Assembly: GCF_014132355.1 (NCBI RefSeq)
Contig: NZ_BLZO01000030.1
Location: 1 to 60,640 of the forward strand
DNA length: 60,640 bases
Direction: 5' to 3'
Source: Okeania sp. KiyG1
Lineage (GTDB): Bacteria; Cyanobacteriota; Cyanobacteriia; Cyanobacteriales; Microcoleaceae
Shown here: positions 45,038-60,270 of the stretch, one piece after another
Numbering within the stretch: the stretch's first letter is position 1
Layout of the letters: each line of letters starts with the position of its first letter
Notes under the pieces: model-generated
Told to the model about the DNA's origin: nothing
Seen by the model: only the letters and a program-made list of their open reading frames with translations
The model's database searches: none
Made by a program: the position numbers and the translations under genes

Positions 45038-46405
45038 TTAATGACCAATACCTACATATTGAAAACCAGCAGTTTCCAACTCTTTGCGATCGCAGAAATT
45101 ACGTCCATCAACAAATAAATTATGTTCCATGGACTTCACCATTTTAGCATAATCTAATTTCTCAAACTGTTTCCAGTCAGTCACCAACACCAAAGCATCA
45201 CAACCATCAGCAAGTCTTTCTACATCTGTTTCCACTACCACACCAGTCAAACCATGACGCATACCAGACTGAGAAATAATCGGATCGTAAGCCTTCACCT
45301 TTGCCCCCAACCTGTTCAACTCTTGAATCAAATCTAGAGAAGGTGCATCCCGCATATCATCAGTATCAGGCTTAAACGTCAAACCCAATAAACCAATAGT
45401 CTTACCCTTAAGAATTTTCAGCGCTTGCTGTAACTTATCTATTGCTATCATGCGTTGACGCTTATTCACCTCAATTGCTGATTTCAACAACTGTGCCTCA
45501 CAACCATAGTCATCAGCAGTATGTACTAAAGCAGAAACATCCTTCGGGAAACAAGAGCCACCCCAACCAATACCAGCTTGTAAAAATTTATTACCAATGC
45601 GGGAGTCTAAACCAATACCCTTAGAAACCTGAGTCACATCTGCACCGACGCGGTCGCAAATATTAGCAATCTCATTCACAAAACTAATCTTAGTTGCCAA
45701 GAAAGAATTAGCAGCATACTTAATCATTTCCGCAGAACTCAAATCTGTTGTTACCACTGCTACTGGTGGGAGTGAAGGATCGTCACCATACTTACGTTCA
45801 ACCAGAGGTGTATAAAGCTCCAACATCATATCTAATGCCTTTTGACTATTACTACCCAATACTATGCGGTCTGGATTAAAAGTATCGAATATAGCGGAAC
45901 CTTCGCGTAAAAACTCTGGGTTACTAACCACATCAAATTCAGCTTCAATATCTGTACCGGAGCCACCATCTTCTTTTTTCCGTTCATCAACCCCATCTAA
46001 AACAATTCTTCGTACCCAGTCACCAGAACCAATAGGTACAGTTGATTTATTTACAATTACCTTATAACCTGTAGTCAAATGAGCGCCTATCCCTTTCGCC
46101 ACTGCCTCAACATAACGAGTATCGCTTTCCCCTGTAGGGAGTGGGGGAGTACCAACAGCAATAAATAAGATATCGCCATGCTCTACCCCAGCTTTCAAGT
46201 CAGATGTAAACTCTAGGGTTCCTGCTTTGGTGCAACCTTGCATCAGTTCAGATAACCCTGGTTCGTAGATTGGAGACTGTCCTGATTTTAAGAGTTTAAC
46301 TTTTTCCTCGTTGTTGTCTACGCAAATTACATGATGTCCTGTATGAGAAAGACAAACTCCTGTAACTAAACCAACGTAACCAGTACCAATAACGCAAACA
46401 CGCAT
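45038..46405 (-). CDS. ugd: UDP-glucose 6-dehydrogenase
   Basis: A 455-residue NAD-dependent enzyme that oxidises UDP-glucose to UDP-glucuronate. The N-terminal Rossmann fold MRVCVIGTGYVGLVTGVCLS, IAVGTPPLPTGESD, the central EMIKYAANSFLATKISFVNE and the catalytic Cys in GIGWGGSCFPKD (about residue 280) are all present. The C-terminal UDP-binding LLGLTFKPDTDDMRDAPS is also intact. It is on the same strand as uxs (48131-51367), which uses its product, with a TnpB element between them. The uxs-ugd pair was probably contiguous before that insertion. Confidence 0.96.
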   Translation of the reverse strand: MRVCVIGTGYVGLVTGVCLSHTGHHVICVDNNEEKVKLLKSGQSPIYEPGLSELMQGCTKAGTLEFTSDLKAGVEHGDILFIAVGTPPLPTGESDTRYVEAVAKGIGAHLTTGYKVIVNKSTVPIGSGDWVRRIVLDGVDERKKEDGGSGTDIEAEFDVVSNPEFLREGSAIFDTFNPDRIVLGSNSQKALDMMLELYTPLVERKYGDDPSLPPVAVVTTDLSSAEMIKYAANSFLATKISFVNEIANICDRVGADVTQVSKGIGLDSRIGNKFLQAGIGWGGSCFPKDVSALVHTADDYGCEAQLLKSAIEVNKRQRMIAIDKLQQALKILKGKTIGLLGLTFKPDTDDMRDAPSLDLIQELNRLGAKVKAYDPIISQSGMRHGLTGVVVETDVERLADGCDALVLVTDWKQFEKLDYAKMVKSMEHNLFVDGRNFCDRKELETAGFQYVGIGH

Positions 46406-46762: not shown

Positions 46763-47998
46763 TCAAAAGCCTGAAATCTTAGTCATTCGTAGTGGATCAA
46801 GCACTACAGGGTTAAACGGCAAACCCTTTATTCCCTGGTCAAAGACATCAGGAATTACTTTTTTAATTATATTCAATGACCCATTTACATCTGCATTTAA
46901 TAATTTATTTTTCCGAGTTTTATACAATCCTCGTGTTACTCTTTTTCCACTAAATTTCGGTTTGTTTTCTCCATATTTTGGTAAATCATCCCCGTCTAAA
47001 CAGCTTGATTGAGATGTATAAGATTCTTCTGTTATTATTACTTTTATTCCTCTTAGTTGGGCTTTATATCTTAACATCTCTATTAACTTATAATGAGGGA
47101 TATTCACAAATTGTTGATTGTTCTTTTTCCCTAATTTTATCTCTTGTTTCCAACTCTGATTATGCCCAATAATCAATACTCCTATTTTATGGTTTACACA
47201 CCAATCTATTACTCTTTTACTTGCTGTATGGAGATAGTTTTCAACTCGACAATTTCGTTTGTGAGTTAATTTTTTTAACCGATGAGAATTGCTTTTATTC
47301 TGATTAGTTTTTAATTGAGATTGTAAAAAAGAGCGCTGTTTATTATAAAAGGTGTTAATAGCTTTTAATGGTCTGCCTTTTATCAAAAGAGGTGAAGTTC
47401 CTGTTTGATTTGTAGTTACAGCTATTAAATTATTTACTCCTAAATCTACTCCTGCTATTTGTTTATTTTCTGTTGTTTCCTCCGATTTTTCATAGACTAT
47501 TTCTATTATATAACAGCTACTTTTCGGGATAATCCTTGCCTCTATTATTTCTGTCTGTGAAGTGGGTATTTTTATTTCACTCATGGATAAGTGACAAATC
47601 CCCTTTTTTAAGGTTTTTTTGTAAATTGATTCATTAGGATAGGGCAGAATATTTCGGCCTTTTGTTTTATGTTTATATTTGGGAATTTTTGGTTTACCTA
47701 AAAATTTCTTTGGCTGTTTTTGCCATGCTTTTAAAGCAGAAAAATAACTACTCCAAGCTGAGTCTAATCTTCTGATTATTTGCTTGCTAACTTTAGTTGG
47801 TAAAGCTTGATAATCGTCACTTTTAGATACCTTGTGATCAAGCTCATTAAAATTTAATTTCTTTTTGTTTTCAAAGAAATGTTGGCGATAATGGTAATTG
47901 GCTAAATTGAACAGATTTTTCGACAAAAAAGCCTTGTGGTCACAAGCTGACCATAAATAATGTGATTTGGTAATAACATGACGTTCAACTAGCTTCAT
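46763..47998 (-). CDS. tnpB: TnpB, RNA-guided nuclease of an IS605/IS1341-type element
   Basis: A 411-residue OrfB/TnpB protein with an intact RuvC active site: Asp in IAGVDLGVNNLIAV (about residue 191), Glu in VIITEESYTSQSSC (about 321) and Asp in LLNADVNGSLNII (about 373). The zinc-finger is reduced: SSC is followed by SCLDGDDLPKYG, and the second CxxC is not clear. TnpB proteins cut DNA using an omega-RNA from their own 3' end. No tnpA is present, so it is a solitary element that would need help to move. It sits between uxs and ugd on the same strand. Confidence 0.9.
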   Translation of the reverse strand: MKLVERHVITKSHYLWSACDHKAFLSKNLFNLANYHYRQHFFENKKKLNFNELDHKVSKSDDYQALPTKVSKQIIRRLDSAWSSYFSALKAWQKQPKKFLGKPKIPKYKHKTKGRNILPYPNESIYKKTLKKGICHLSMSEIKIPTSQTEIIEARIIPKSSCYIIEIVYEKSEETTENKQIAGVDLGVNNLIAVTTNQTGTSPLLIKGRPLKAINTFYNKQRSFLQSQLKTNQNKSNSHRLKKLTHKRNCRVENYLHTASKRVIDWCVNHKIGVLIIGHNQSWKQEIKLGKKNNQQFVNIPHYKLIEMLRYKAQLRGIKVIITEESYTSQSSCLDGDDLPKYGENKPKFSGKRVTRGLYKTRKNKLLNADVNGSLNIIKKVIPDVFDQGIKGLPFNPVVLDPLRMTKISGF

Positions 47999-48130: not shown

Positions 48131-51100
48131 TCAAATTTTTGGCGGTTCATTTTTGAGCCGCTCTCGAAAATCTTCTATGGTCAATTTTAACCCTTCTTGG
48201 AGAGGAACAGTAGGCTCCCAACCTAAATATTTTTTAGCACGAGTAATATCTGGTTGTCGCTGTTTCGGATCATCTTGTGGTAGAGGTTTATATGTTATTT
48301 CTGCATCTGGGTTAACCATGTGTTGAATTGTGTGAGCCAATTCTAGTATGGTATATTCTCCAGGGTTGCCGATGTTAACTGGTCCAATAAAGTCTTGATT
48401 CATTAATCGAATAAACCCTTCGACCAAGTCTGACACATAACAGAAACTTCTGGTTTGAGAGCCATCTCCATATACTGTTAGTGGTATTCCTTTTAAGGCT
48501 TGTGTAATAAAGTTACTTACTACTCGACCATCATTTTCTAACATTCTTGGTCCGTAAGTATTATGAGCAAAAATTCCGTAGCTTCCTCCAATAAAGTTTT
48601 CATAATTTGGTACTGAAAAATCATACACATAATCATCTATTTCAAATTCCTCAATACTTTCTATTTTTGCCCAGACAATATCACCAGTACTTTTTGCCGA
48701 TATTTTTTGTTGAATGTTAGACAAATTCTCAATATTGTTATCTTCTAAACCCTCTATTATTATCCGGTAAATTTTATTATCCTTTACCTCTATTTCTGAG
48801 ACATTTGCTACTAGTCCAAACTTAGCTAAAATTAATACTAATTTTTCAGCGATCGCCTGACTTTCACTCTTAAATTCAATCTTTGAATTTAGTCGATCTT
48901 CTACTAGATTATTTCCTTCATTCAATCCCTGTAAAAAGCTAATCAATTGTTTTGGAGGAAGTTGTAAAATCCAATTAGGAATATTTTTTTCTTGATTCCC
49001 AAAATTCAATCCTTCTGCAATTAAATCGACCAGAATTTTTGACTTAACACTTATAGACCCTTCTACCTTAATTTCACATTGACAGTCAAATATTCTTTCT
49101 ACTACTTCTATTAATTTTGCTAATTTCTCAGCTTCTCCTTTAAACAACAATTCATTGTCTATCAAACTTCCTTGAGCAACATAAAACCCTAATAACCATA
49201 AAAATTCTTCTATATTCTCTATCCAATTTTTAATTGCCTTTGAAGATAAATAGCAAATTTTCTCTTTTTTAGATAGAGGAAGTTCTAAATATTTCCATAG
49301 ATGCAAAGGAATCTGATTTTTGGCCTCGTAGCTTTTTAGTATTGAGTAAAGTTGTTCGGGATGAACATCTTTTGCCAATAAATACTCACGAATTTTACCT
49401 CCATATTTTTCTATATAAGAGATAGTCTGTTCACTTTCTACAGATATTTCTTCTTGAATAGAAATTTTCTCTGTAATGTGGAATGGTGGTAAAGGTTGCT
49501 CCAAAAAACTGATATAACTAGGAACTCCTATTTCATCTCCCACCTTTAATTCATTTCCAAAAACTGCTTGAGGTCGGTCGTTATTATCCCTACTAAATAA
49601 ACTATGGTCTTCAGTAATTTTTATCTGCTTACCCCAGACAGTTTTTATCTGATAACCCTTCTTCTTCACATGATGTTTCCAAATTGCAGAAATTGGTTTA
49701 ATTACTGTCTTAGAATTTTCATCAAAACAAGGCACCGATACATTAGAAATATCTCCATTAATCCTGTCATAACATTCAGCAAAACTTTCATAATAGAGTT
49801 TTTCACCAATGTAATAAACTACCTTTTGGTCTCCAGTCAAACTATTAAAAATTCTGACTACTCGAATATCAACATTATTCTGACGATGGTAATCAAATGC
49901 CAAAGTTTCTGCTACTCGCTTCCCCTCGTCATAACATTGACCACACCAAGCAGCACGCCCATTTCTCCTAACAAAAACCACATGGTTTGTGACATTAACA
50001 CAATAAACTTTTCCCACATAATGGAACCGTTCTGGTGTCACTAAATTCGCATCCTTAGCAGGTCGAATATTCACTCGATAAAGGTCACGTCCCACTGCAT
50101 GAGAAACTACCGAAGCCGCATAACCACAACGAAGTGCTAATTCTTGTACATCATCTGCTAATTGTTTAGATTTACTATAGTAAGCGTAGCAATCTCCCTC
50201 TTCCGAACCATCACCTATTATCAGAGCTTTAAATAAGATTAATAACTGTCGTTTTGATAGTTGGAATAACTCACGAGGAATGTATTTTTCACCAGACTTA
50301 CCTAAAGGCAATAAAATCTCAGCTAACTGTTTACTACAAATCCTAAATTGACCGTCATCCGAATCAGATAAAGTTTCAGTAAAATTCAACCCTAAACGAC
50401 TTAAACAATTAGCAATTTTCAAACCTCCTTCAGAATTTCCTCTAGCAATTAACACATTATAATCTGCTACATCATAATCATTTCCCCCTACCACTCGCGA
50501 CATTTTTCTCACATCAACGCAACCTTCAGAAATGAAATAACCCAAAAATTCTAGCCAGTCATCCATGAAGATTTTGTCTACTTTTACCTTGGCATTTCTA
50601 GGATAAGTTCCTAACTCAAACCATTCTACTTCTTCCCCTTCAAAATCTCCTCCAGTTAATGCCTGCAAACTTTGCCAATGCTTATCTTCATCTGCCCTGA
50701 TAAACTTTAATTTATCAGTTTTGCTACGCACATACATCCAATGGTTAGGAGTCACACAAAAATCCAACTTACTATTAGCAAAACGGTACATTTCCCCAAT
50801 ATATGGTTGTACGATATATTCATCAGGAATATGATATTCGACTTTACCTTCTGGATTTAAAGTTGCTACTTTTACTTCTGGTTGTAAATCTGGAAAAGCC
50901 ACCCAACCTGCTTCAGTTAAAATTTCAGTTTTAGGGTCAAAACACGAGCGAATGCCAATACAATTAACATTACCTCTATATTCCTCCGTTTGAGGATGTA
51001 CATCTGGGTCTCCATATACCTCAGATGTAGAAGCCAAAAAGAACCTTGCCTTTACCCTTTTAGCTAACCCCAACATATTCAATGTCCCCATCACATTCGT

Positions 51101-51367
51101 TTTAATTGTCTTGACAGGGTTGTATTGATAGTGTATTGGACTAGCAGGACAAGCTAGATGATAAATTTGATCCGCTTCCAATCTAATAGGTTCAGTAATA
51201 TCGTGGCGAATTAACTCAAAATAAGGATGATTCAACCACCTTAAAATATTGCGCTTAGTTCCTGTGTAAAAATTATCAAGACAGATGACTTCATGGCCTT
51301 GTTCCATTAATCTATCGATGAGATGAGAACCAAGAAAACCCGCGCCACCTGTTACTAATATTTTCAT
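48131..51367 (-). CDS. uxs: UDP-glucuronate decarboxylase (UDP-xylose synthase) with two inteins
   Basis: The 1078-residue precursor holds a 314-residue host enzyme in three pieces: residues 1-141 ([43 protein letters not shown]), 478-508 ([20 protein letters not shown]) and 937-1078 ([17 protein letters not shown]). This is an SDR enzyme that converts UDP-glucuronate to UDP-xylose. The catalytic YxxxK pair (Y479, K483) begins one residue after intein 1, so splicing is needed for activity. Intein 2 splits the conserved FN/TYGPRM segment. With ugd it makes a UDP-sugar pathway feeding polysaccharide synthesis. Confidence 0.95.
48560..49843 (-). other. Intein 2 in Uxs (428 residues, endonuclease degenerate)
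   Basis: Residues 509-936 of the precursor. It starts [11 protein letters not shown] with Ser as nucleophile, has block [13 protein letters not shown], and ends [20 protein letters not shown] then HN with T937 as the +1 residue. The central region has [12 protein letters not shown] and [13 protein letters not shown] in the two LAGLIDADG positions, but the catalytic Asp/Glu are replaced by Gln and Asn, so homing is likely lost while splicing blocks are intact. Confidence 0.9.
49937..50944 (-). other. Intein 1 in Uxs (336 residues, LAGLIDADG homing type)
   Basis: Residues 142-477 of the precursor. It starts [14 protein letters not shown] (block A), has a block [12 protein letters not shown], two LAGLIDADG-like helices ([15 protein letters not shown] and [18 protein letters not shown]), and a C-terminal block [21 protein letters not shown] then WCGQ before C478. 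The last residue is Gln rather than the usual Asn, and the His before it is replaced by Gly; both are known but uncommon. The +1 residue is Cys. The endonuclease acidic residues look kept (E281, D385). Confidence 0.92.
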
Positions 51368-58259: not shown

Positions 58260-58565
58260 TTAGGGTCTGCTGAAAAAATTGTTTGGTGGGGGTAGGACGC
58301 GGGGACGCGGAGATGGGGGACAGGCAGCGGTTTCGGCAATTTTATGTGAAGAAATTTTGAATCTCAGCAGAAAATTTCAGTAAATTGATGCAAATAAGAG
58401 CCATAAACGTAGGAGATAAACTGAATATCAAAAGCTCCATTACCGTAAACTATCCTGACTTTTAGCTTTATTCAGCTAGCCTTAGTTAATATAACTTCAG
58501 CCAACAAAATTGAACTAAAGAATCAGAAAGGTTAGCTTTCTGTATTACTTAAATATATCTACACA
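58260..58565. mobile_element. MITE of the AGGGTCTGCTGAAAAA family and spacer
   Basis: TTAGGGTCTGCTGAAAAAAT (58259 onward) and TTTATTCAGCTAGCCTTAGTTAA (to about 58493). It is the inverted relative of 44700-44933. The rest to 58565 is AT-rich and empty. Confidence 0.55.
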
Positions 58566-59311
58566 TCATATCTTACCAAACCTACGTTGACGTTTCTGGT
58601 AAGCAAATAAGGCACGATGAAATTCAGAACGGTTAAAATCAGGCCAAAATGTTTCAGTAACATAAATTTCAGAATAAGCCATTTGCCATAATAAAAATTA
58701 CTAATTCGCATTTCCCCACTGGTACGAATTAACAAATCAGGATGAGAAATTCCAGCAGTATAAAGATATTGCTCAAATAACCCTTCATTAATTTCCTCTG
58801 GCTTTAGTAAGCCTTTTTGTACCTGAGAAGCGATCGCCTGACAAGCGTGTACAATTTCCTGACGTCCTCCATAATTAGTAGCTACAGTAAACTTAATCCC
58901 CTGATTTTGCTGAGTCATTTCCATAGAATGCTTAATCTCAGCTTGTAAAGATAGAGGTAAAGAACTTAGATTACCAACAAATCTAATTTGAACATCTTCT
59001 GCCACCATCTCCTTTAGTTCTTGACGTAAAATTTTTTCAAATAAAGTCATCAAAAAATTAACTTCCTCTAGTGGCCTGCCCCAATTTTCACTAGAGAATG
59101 CGTAAGCAGTCAATGCTTCTATACCCCAATCTCGACTACACCTTAGTAGAGCTTTCAGCGCTTCCACCCCACGCCTATGACCCATAATTCTAGGTAAACC
59201 ACGGTGTCCCGCCCAGCGACCATTGCCATCCATAATCACAGCTACATGACGAGGCAACTTTTCTGGTTCGAGGTCAACAGGTAAATCTTGTAAGCAAGTT
59301 CCTTGATTCAT
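58566..59311 (-). CDS. uppS: Isoprenyl (undecaprenyl) diphosphate synthase, frameshifted at a T run
   Basis: The start is taken at 59311 ([20 protein letters not shown]), overlapping the cdaA stop as ATGA; an upstream ATG at 59353 would overlap by 46 bases. Catalytic Asp lies in [20 protein letters not shown]. At SGEMRISNF the frame is lost: a run of five T (58693-58697 as A on the plus strand) should be six, giving [20 protein letters not shown], then [18 protein letters not shown] and stop at 58566-58568. That C-terminus is the conserved dimer end. The enzyme makes the polyprenyl carrier for peptidoglycan and is usually essential, so this is more likely an unread base than a dead gene. Confidence 0.88.
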
Positions 59312-60270
59312 CTTTTCTTTCGAGGAGCTGATGGACTTTGACGAAGCATCCATGACATTAATCTCGATCCTTTAGATCCCATTTTAAGTCCAAGATTAAC
59401 TAGAGTGAATGGTTTTGTATTTTTTTCACTACCTGATAGAAATAGGCGTTGTTCTAATAATTCCTTAAGTTTATTGCTAGTTAAGGGTCGATTTAAAGTC
59501 CCTTTTTCGGCCAGAGAAATAGAACCTGTTTCTTCAGACACCACTACGCAGATGCACTTTTCTACTTGTTCTGTAATTCCCATAGCAGCTCGATGACGAG
59601 TCCCTAATTGCCTGGAAGCTATTCTCTCAGACAGTGGTAGAATCACACCAGCCGATATAATTTTATGTTCTCGAATTAGGACTGCGCCATCGTGCAATAA
59701 AGTTTTTGGCTGAAATATGGTTTGTAATAGTTCCTTAGAAAGTTCAGCATTTAACTTTACCCCTGGTACAGAAAAATCCCTCTCATCTATAGGCCCTTCT
59801 GTCTCTATGATTAACAAAGCGCCTATACGATTTTGAGACAGTTGTTTGATTGATTCTACTATTTCATCAATAATGCTATCTGATTCAGGTAAAACTCTGC
59901 TATTATGTCCAAACATTTGCAGAATTTCTCCCTGTCCCAACTGCTCAAGAAACCGACGGAATTCTGATTGTAATATTACTGCCATTGAAACAGCAGAGCC
60001 TATAACTAAGCTGTTGAGGGCAAAACTTAAAAGTCTTAATTCAGCCCATTGACTTAAAGCCGAAGCCAACATTAAGACTATAAACCCTCTTACCATCCAT
60101 AATGTGCGACGTTCCCCTATGATGACAAGCACCATATATATCAAGGCTAGAACAAGTCCGATATCGATACTGTGTACCACCAAGGACTGGATCAAGTCTG
60201 AGTCATTATTGGTACTTTGTACAACCAAGAGCTGGACTAAGCCTGGGTCATTACTAAGACCCGATTTCAT
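59308..60270 (-). CDS. cdaA: Diadenylate cyclase CdaA (c-di-AMP synthase)
   Basis: A 320-residue protein with three N-terminal membrane segments (about 33-95), then a DAC domain with DGA (LLHDGAVLI, about residue 193), GTRHRAAMG (about 222-230) and [12 protein letters not shown]. It joins two ATP into c-di-AMP, a messenger for osmotic and potassium control. The C-terminal basic tail ([11 protein letters not shown]) is longer than usual. It overlaps uppS by four bases, and cdaA-uppS pairs are the rule in cyanobacteria. Note the 320-residue start at 60270 adds a short hydrophobic-poor N-terminus whose exact start is not certain. Confidence 0.93.

Follow-up and report, generated by a model that had tools for sequence, protein, structure and literature searches.

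Two inteins with contrasting endonuclease motifs interrupt the predicted UDP-glucuronate decarboxylase gene of Okeania sp. KiyG1

How can an enzyme be made from a gene that is interrupted twice, once directly before its YxxxK motif, and how did the two interruptions come to lie so close together? This question is raised by a gene in a 60,640-nucleotide stretch of DNA from Okeania sp. KiyG1 (contig NZ_BLZO01000030.1), referred to here as the window. An earlier note, made from the letters alone, had read the gene (uxs) as a UDP-glucuronate decarboxylase (UXS) with two inteins. Our analysis makes it likely that uxs carries two self-excising class-1-type inteins of independent origin; intein 1 has a plausibly active endonuclease, whereas that of intein 2, a long-standing resident, is dead.

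The uxs precursor and its host enzyme

The uxs precursor is encoded on the minus strand (48131-51367), starts with ATG and is 1078 aa long. Its borders were recomputed, giving the N-extein at residues 1-141 (50945-51367), intein 1 at residues 142-477 (336 aa; 49937-50944), the middle extein at residues 478-508 (49844-49936), intein 2 at residues 509-936 (428 aa; 48560-49843) and the C-extein at residues 937-1078 (48134-48559, with the stop codon at 48131-48133), all on the minus strand. These are exactly the borders given in the earlier note, and its 314-residue joined enzyme (141 + 31 + 142), its 31 host residues between the inteins and its placement of the YxxxK Tyr at residue 479 were likewise reproduced. 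The best solved match to the joined host was human UXS1 (4gll; residues 2-308, 455 bits); the best non-UXS chain reached 149 bits. By sequence membership and the YxxxK motif, the host is classed as a UDP-glucuronate decarboxylase, as had been claimed.

Orthologous inteins occur at exactly the same positions elsewhere and other genomes have uninterrupted sites, so the insert borders are not due to chance. The reading of the inserts as genuine domains of an unusual host enzyme has the open frame and nothing more in its favour. It is refuted by the intein motifs and intein folds of both inserts and by relatives in which both sites are empty: in 33 of the 62 family genomes, an orthologue covering at least 300 of the 314 residues, with an identity of 84% or higher, is uninterrupted. 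The probability of this reading is close to nil.

Anatomy of the two inteins

Intein 1 is inserted directly before the host motif Cys-Tyr-Asp-Glu-Gly-Lys. It has the class 1 features of an N-terminal Cys, a block B TxxH (TPNH), a block F His and a +1 Cys, with the blocks assigned by eye, but it ends Cys-Gly-Gln rather than with a C-terminal Asn after His, Gly replacing the penultimate His. The Gln end is absent from the earlier note. Seven residues (C1, T65, H68, C315, H321, C334 and G335) are invariant in 23/23 aligned rows, and Cys+1 is found at all 26 UXS junctions read. In class 3 inteins there is no N-terminal nucleophile and a block F Cys acts instead; this class was ruled out for intein 1, in which Cys1 is present beside C315, both in 23/23 rows. 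That the Cys-Gly-Gln-Cys junction has a redox role is speculation. The Pfam Intein_splicing model gave no match to intein 1, and LAGLIDADG_3 matched it at 36.6 bits (cut-off 22.5). Both catalytic acids are present in its endonuclease motifs, ISEG and IIGDGS, and the acids (E140 and D245) are invariant in 23/23 rows.

Intein 2 splits the host sequence RIFN/TYGPRM and has the class 1 features Ser1, a block B Thr/His, a His-Asn end and Thr+1. The nucleophiles (Cys versus Ser) and +1 residues (Cys versus Thr) of the two inteins were therefore given correctly before. S1, T77, H80, H427 and N428 are invariant in 22/22 rows, and the Pfam Intein_splicing match is 85.5 bits (cut-off 35.8). Where two LAGLIDADG motifs with catalytic acids would be expected, intein 2 has VAQGS and NEGNN with the acids missing, and its LAGLIDADG_3 match of 22.0 bits is slightly below the 22.5 cut-off. 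In Okeania SIO3B5, intein 2 (L104, 6102-7493) has an in-frame insertion of ~40 residues (IEEGVRSQESGVRR...) at the dead endonuclease motif.

AlphaFold2 models were built with host flanks of 20 or 10 residues per side. The top PDB match was the TliVMA intein for intein 1 (pLDDT 85.9) and 2cw7 for intein 2 (pLDDT 88.4), and the matches to the models comprised VMA inteins, further full-length inteins and I-DmoI. In sequence and predicted structure, both inserts are inteins, with intein and homing-endonuclease structures as their best PDB matches.

Distribution and independent arrival

Intein 1 was found in 17 and intein 2 in 16 of the 62 family genomes; for intein 2, 22 genomes matched and six were dropped as having only partial matches of 25-37% identity elsewhere. 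Ten genomes, including Trichodesmium erythraeum, carry both inteins, seven carry intein 1 only and six intein 2 only. In six further genomes (G001, G005, G019, G020, G036 and G050) the uxs matches were partial, fragmentary, distant or absent. The two inteins are only distantly alike, with 22% identity over 183 columns, the alignable part being the endonuclease. Together with the separate occurrence of each intein, this supports the independent arrival that the earlier note had proposed.

Across 386 phylum-wide genomes, 13 matched intein 1 (11 of these full length, at 65% identity or more) and eight matched intein 2. A scan of named genomes gave 84 relatives of intein 1, of which 80 were kept; 26 of these sit in UXS genes, among them those of Okeania SIO3B5, SIO2C9, SIO3I5 and SIO2F4, Hydrocoleum CS-953, T. 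erythraeum and Prochloron didemni. Intein 1 was also seen at the same UXS site in MAGs labelled Deltaproteobacteria (L127, 64% identity) and Acidobacteria (L121, 70%), reflecting transfer or misbinning. In a phage collection, intein 1 had relatives only below 60% identity (128 records), and none were found for intein 2. Four IMG/VR contigs (L196, L197, L199 and L198) have intein 2 relatives at the same site of UXS-like genes, with identical flanks in the first three and with AEG and WEGDGN intact in L196; two more relatives (L200 and L201) lie in another gene. The viral-contig relatives at the same UXS-like site suggest that phages may act as carriers of intein 2.

Splicing and the C-terminal Gln of intein 1

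We infer that both inteins excise from a single long precursor to leave the 314-residue enzyme. Intein 1 would use Cys1, Cys+1 and cyclisation of its C-terminal Gln in place of Asn, and intein 2 would use Ser1, Asn and Thr+1. Since intein 1 lies directly before Cys-Tyr-Asp-Glu-Gly-Lys, the enzyme should be inactive until intein 1 has left. In the passages available from PMC4031507, Gln cyclisation is accepted as a substitute for Asn in Gln-ended inteins, as are penultimate residues other than His as intein variants.

To see where the Gln end occurs, intein 1 junctions were read for 73 of the 80 loci. At the 26 UXS loci, ten copies end with Gln (nine from Okeania, Hydrocoleum and Trichodesmium plus Prochloron) and 16 with Asn, and at the 47 loci in other host genes Asn was found at all 45 that were readable. 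A set of 31 UXS copies divides into 11 with Gln (ten Okeania/Trichodesmium/Hydrocoleum copies plus Prochloron) and 20 with Asn. In the tree of these 31 copies, all ten Okeania-type rows with Gln fall into a single clade (100/100). With Prochloron included, the tree needs at least two changes for the Gln end; a single Gln clade was not rejected (AU p 0.075). Among 12 intein 1 relatives on viral contigs, one (L189) is Gln-ended; it lies in another gene and ends Trp-Cys-Gly-Gln, which makes more than one origin of the Gln end probable in the wider intein family. Intein 2 is present in 11/11 Gln-bearing genes compared to 3/20 Asn-bearing rows, a comparison confounded by kinship.

Selection was measured as dN/dS in the Okeania/Trichodesmium clade, using ten genes for intein 1 and 15 each for intein 2 and the host. 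The host gave 0.085, the splicing halves 0.196 and 0.099 in intein 1 and 0.164 and 0.126 in intein 2, and the endonuclease parts 0.347 and 0.367, respectively. In both inteins, purifying selection acts on the splicing halves, and more tightly than on the endonuclease parts. This bears on whether the Gln-ended intein 1 still splices well or whether the gene is instead an effective pseudogene or a slow switch. Poor splicing would fit the missing penultimate His and the slowing by Gln of two characterised Pol II inteins, although in the CIV intein Gln gives better splicing than Asn does (both from passages of PMC4031507). It is hard to square with the low dN/dS of the host and of the intein 1 splicing halves (0.10-0.20), or with the search of the genome at E 1e-30, which gave no closer UXS copy (next match 33% identity). 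We regard poor splicing as quite improbable.

Endonuclease state and history of the inteins

The endonuclease acids of intein 2 are missing, as aligned, in 15/15 members of the clade. They are kept in G008, QS_4_48_99, G180, SW_9_44_58 and G284, and the motifs are also changed in Prochloron, G339 and G175. In intein 1, the second motif is an intact GDG in the six Okeania/Hydrocoleum carriers; in the four copies from Trichodesmium the acid is retained but the residues around it have eroded (DDN, DDN, GDA and GDN). Mean dS between groups Okeania A and Okeania/Hydrocoleum B was 0.329 for the host, 0.196 for intein 1 and 0.390 for intein 2 (nine pairs, non-independent). Intein 2 has thus diverged about as much as the host, and intein 1, which is patchily absent, has diverged less than its host gene. 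A single group of all clade genes without intein 1 was rejected (AU p 0.001); for the three Okeania without intein 1 as one group, AU p was 0.078.

Intein 1 may have been gained and lost at its site through a plausibly active homing endonuclease, and intein 2 would be retained because only its precise removal spares the enzyme. Alternatively, both inteins are purely vertical relics, the patchiness of intein 1 reflecting several precise losses and its endonuclease being no longer active. Vertical descent is consistent with the intein 1 tree, whose test gave no significant rejection of the host groupings (AU p 0.454 and 0.139), so that homing rests on the dS of non-independent pairs and on patchiness. 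It is also consistent with the eroded second motif of the four Trichodesmium copies and with the intein 1 endonuclease being about as relaxed in dN/dS as the dead one of intein 2, a similarity that counts against strong present selection for intein 1 endonuclease activity. The low dS of intein 1 relative to the host and intein 2, the intact GDG in six carriers and a synonymous hotspot at the intein 1 site in the Okeania/Hydrocoleum groups, described below, argue against vertical descent. On balance, purely vertical descent is unlikely, but it keeps appreciable weight.

A synonymous hotspot at the intein 1 insertion point

Host codons flanking the intein 1 insertion point show raised synonymous variation, the hotspot comprising codons 138-141 before the intein (50945-50956, minus strand) and codons 142-147 after it (49919-49936, minus strand). 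For the six genes of Okeania A, synonymous differences were seen in 0.362 of pairs over the 14 codons that surround the point, compared to 0.104 gene-wide (permutation p 0.00005; leave-one-out p at most 0.0006). Of 286 windows, the one starting at codon 136 ranked best. Because this zone was spotted before being tested, the p-value for group A is optimistic; groups other than A were examined afterwards. The four group B genes gave 0.345 compared to 0.172 (p 0.010), with the best window starting at codon 137, and all 15 clade genes together gave p 0.012. When the ten A and B genes are taken together, most of the excess falls in codons 138-147 (~10 codons, 30 bp; residue-matched permutation p 0.0005). 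Neither group showed elevation at site 2, where intein 2 is inserted (A, p 0.14; B, p 0.23).

The hotspot may record a DNA-level arms race, in which uxs alleles of Okeania and Hydrocoleum were repeatedly recoded with the protein unchanged, escaping the intein 1 homing endonuclease and leaving the site of the dead endonuclease untouched. We put this forward tentatively, as somewhat less than an even chance. A zone of ~30 bp fits the length of a LAGLIDADG recognition site. The escape reading is supported by the lack of a hotspot both in Trichodesmium, where the second motif is eroded (four genes, p 0.28), and at the dead intein's site in Okeania; the active-looking and the dead endonuclease lie only 93 bp of host sequence apart, so site 2 serves as an internal control for escape at site 1. 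Homing endonucleases tolerate single synonymous changes, according to passages of PMC3024317, so escape would need several. Co-conversion as the sole cause is disfavoured because the zone is only ~10 codons long and codons 131-137 are invariant in the ten A and B genes, in which codons 150 and 154 do vary.

A cause that has nothing to do with the endonuclease, such as local mutation, short-patch recombination or chance variation among conserved motifs, has about an even chance of being right. The hotspot is present in Okeania A carriers alone and in non-carriers alone, its changes are homoplasious (consistency index 0.37 versus 0.62), and its haplotypes recur in carriers and non-carriers, all of which such a cause would explain. 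It would also explain why other groups carrying intein 1 lack the hotspot; none was seen in three carriers of genus group g9 or in a five-gene Halothece-like group. The hotspot is nevertheless centred on the insertion point to within ~30 bp, appears in each of the two groups A and B, and withstood the residue-matched permutation.

As a control, 22 of the 23 uninterrupted g9 genes were used (G014 was left out). Site 1 was not elevated in these intein-free genes (0.272 compared to 0.229, p 0.23). Nor was the Okeania ratio reached by any of 300 six-gene subsets drawn at random, which again speaks against an unrelated cause. The top synonymous window of the g9 genes is at site 2 (0.360 compared to 0.229, p 0.018), so a conserved-motif window can stand out with no intein, which favours such a cause. 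In genus group g10 (L023-L026, L059, L061, L062 and L073; eight of ten genomes, with G052 unparsed and the partial G050 left out), the site 1 zone is among the least variable (0.083-0.092 compared to 0.21-0.23). Four of the eight genes carry intein 1, and the zone is low whether or not the intein is present, contrary to what Okeania shows. Small numbers, a zone seen beforehand and other causes that move the measure in g9 and g10 keep escape from the endonuclease at modest odds.

Relation to known inteins

T. erythraeum (L112) has the same gene interrupted at the same two sites, with intein 1 Gln-ended and intein 2 Asn-ended, and differs in the second endonuclease motif of intein 1 (GDN, compared to GDG in the window). 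Its double-intein epimerase is, we presume, the Ter Ndse-1/-2 pair catalogued earlier in InBase. The suspicion in the earlier note that the double intein is not new is therefore probably right.

Genes with two inteins, inteins ending in Gln, decay of the endonuclease and patchy homing have all been described before (PMC10643990, PMC6195587 and PMC4031507). The Pab and Mma Pol II and CIV ribonucleotide reductase inteins share a C-terminal Gln expected to cyclise; in uxs, unlike in these inteins as described in passages of PMC4031507, the replacement of Asn by Gln occurs among orthologous copies of a single intein at a single site, which yields an Asn/Gln series. The haloarchaeal MCM-a/MCM-d inteins are also two nearby inteins in one gene with patchy presence, but in the passages of PMC10643990 both of their endonucleases are active, whereas in uxs, which is not a replication gene, one endonuclease is without its acids. 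Similarly, Mycobacterium smegmatis DnaBi1 and DnaBi2, for which a cysteine toggle has been proposed, are two unlike inteins in one protein; DnaBi1 is class 3, whereas uxs intein 1 has an N-terminal Cys (passages of PMC6195587). A search by title and abstract, with InBase and most subscription journals outside it, found no paper on uxs inteins or on a synonymous hotspot at an intein site, and uxs is not named in the passages of PMC3620165 consulted.

The double intein itself is one more case. What is new is the Gln/Asn split at one site, the selection on the splicing halves, the contrasting endonuclease fates and the hotspot at site 1. The Asn- and Gln-ended copies of intein 1 at one site form a natural series for adaptation to the loss of a key Asn. 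If the synonymous-only escape footprint is true, past homing activity would be readable from sequence.

Neighbourhood and other loci in the genome

Downstream of uxs, the window encodes a nucleotide-sugar (UDP-glucose 6-type) dehydrogenase (45038-46405, minus strand; TIGR03026, 446 bits), which could supply the UXS substrate and would fit the predicted decarboxylase activity. A dehydrogenase-type motif was found on the same strand as uxs in 21/26 relatives, and in 20 of those 21 the uxs start motif was also matched and lies upstream of the dehydrogenase; that of L122 was not matched. In L105, L111, L121, L124 and L127 there was no such dehydrogenase-type motif within the sequence examined. Between uxs and the dehydrogenase lies a TnpB-family gene (46763-47998, minus strand; guided_TnpB, 192 bits). 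Elsewhere in the window, models of undecaprenyl diphosphate synthase match its ORF (58559-59353, minus strand) only to about residue 221 of 264, and the usual C-terminal part is in another frame, indicating a frameshift, either real or from assembly. Further ORFs of 1771, 1875, 901 and 1121 residues on contigs C117, C65 and C8 of the same genome have three, four, one and two matches to intein splicing domains, respectively, where one intein can count twice.
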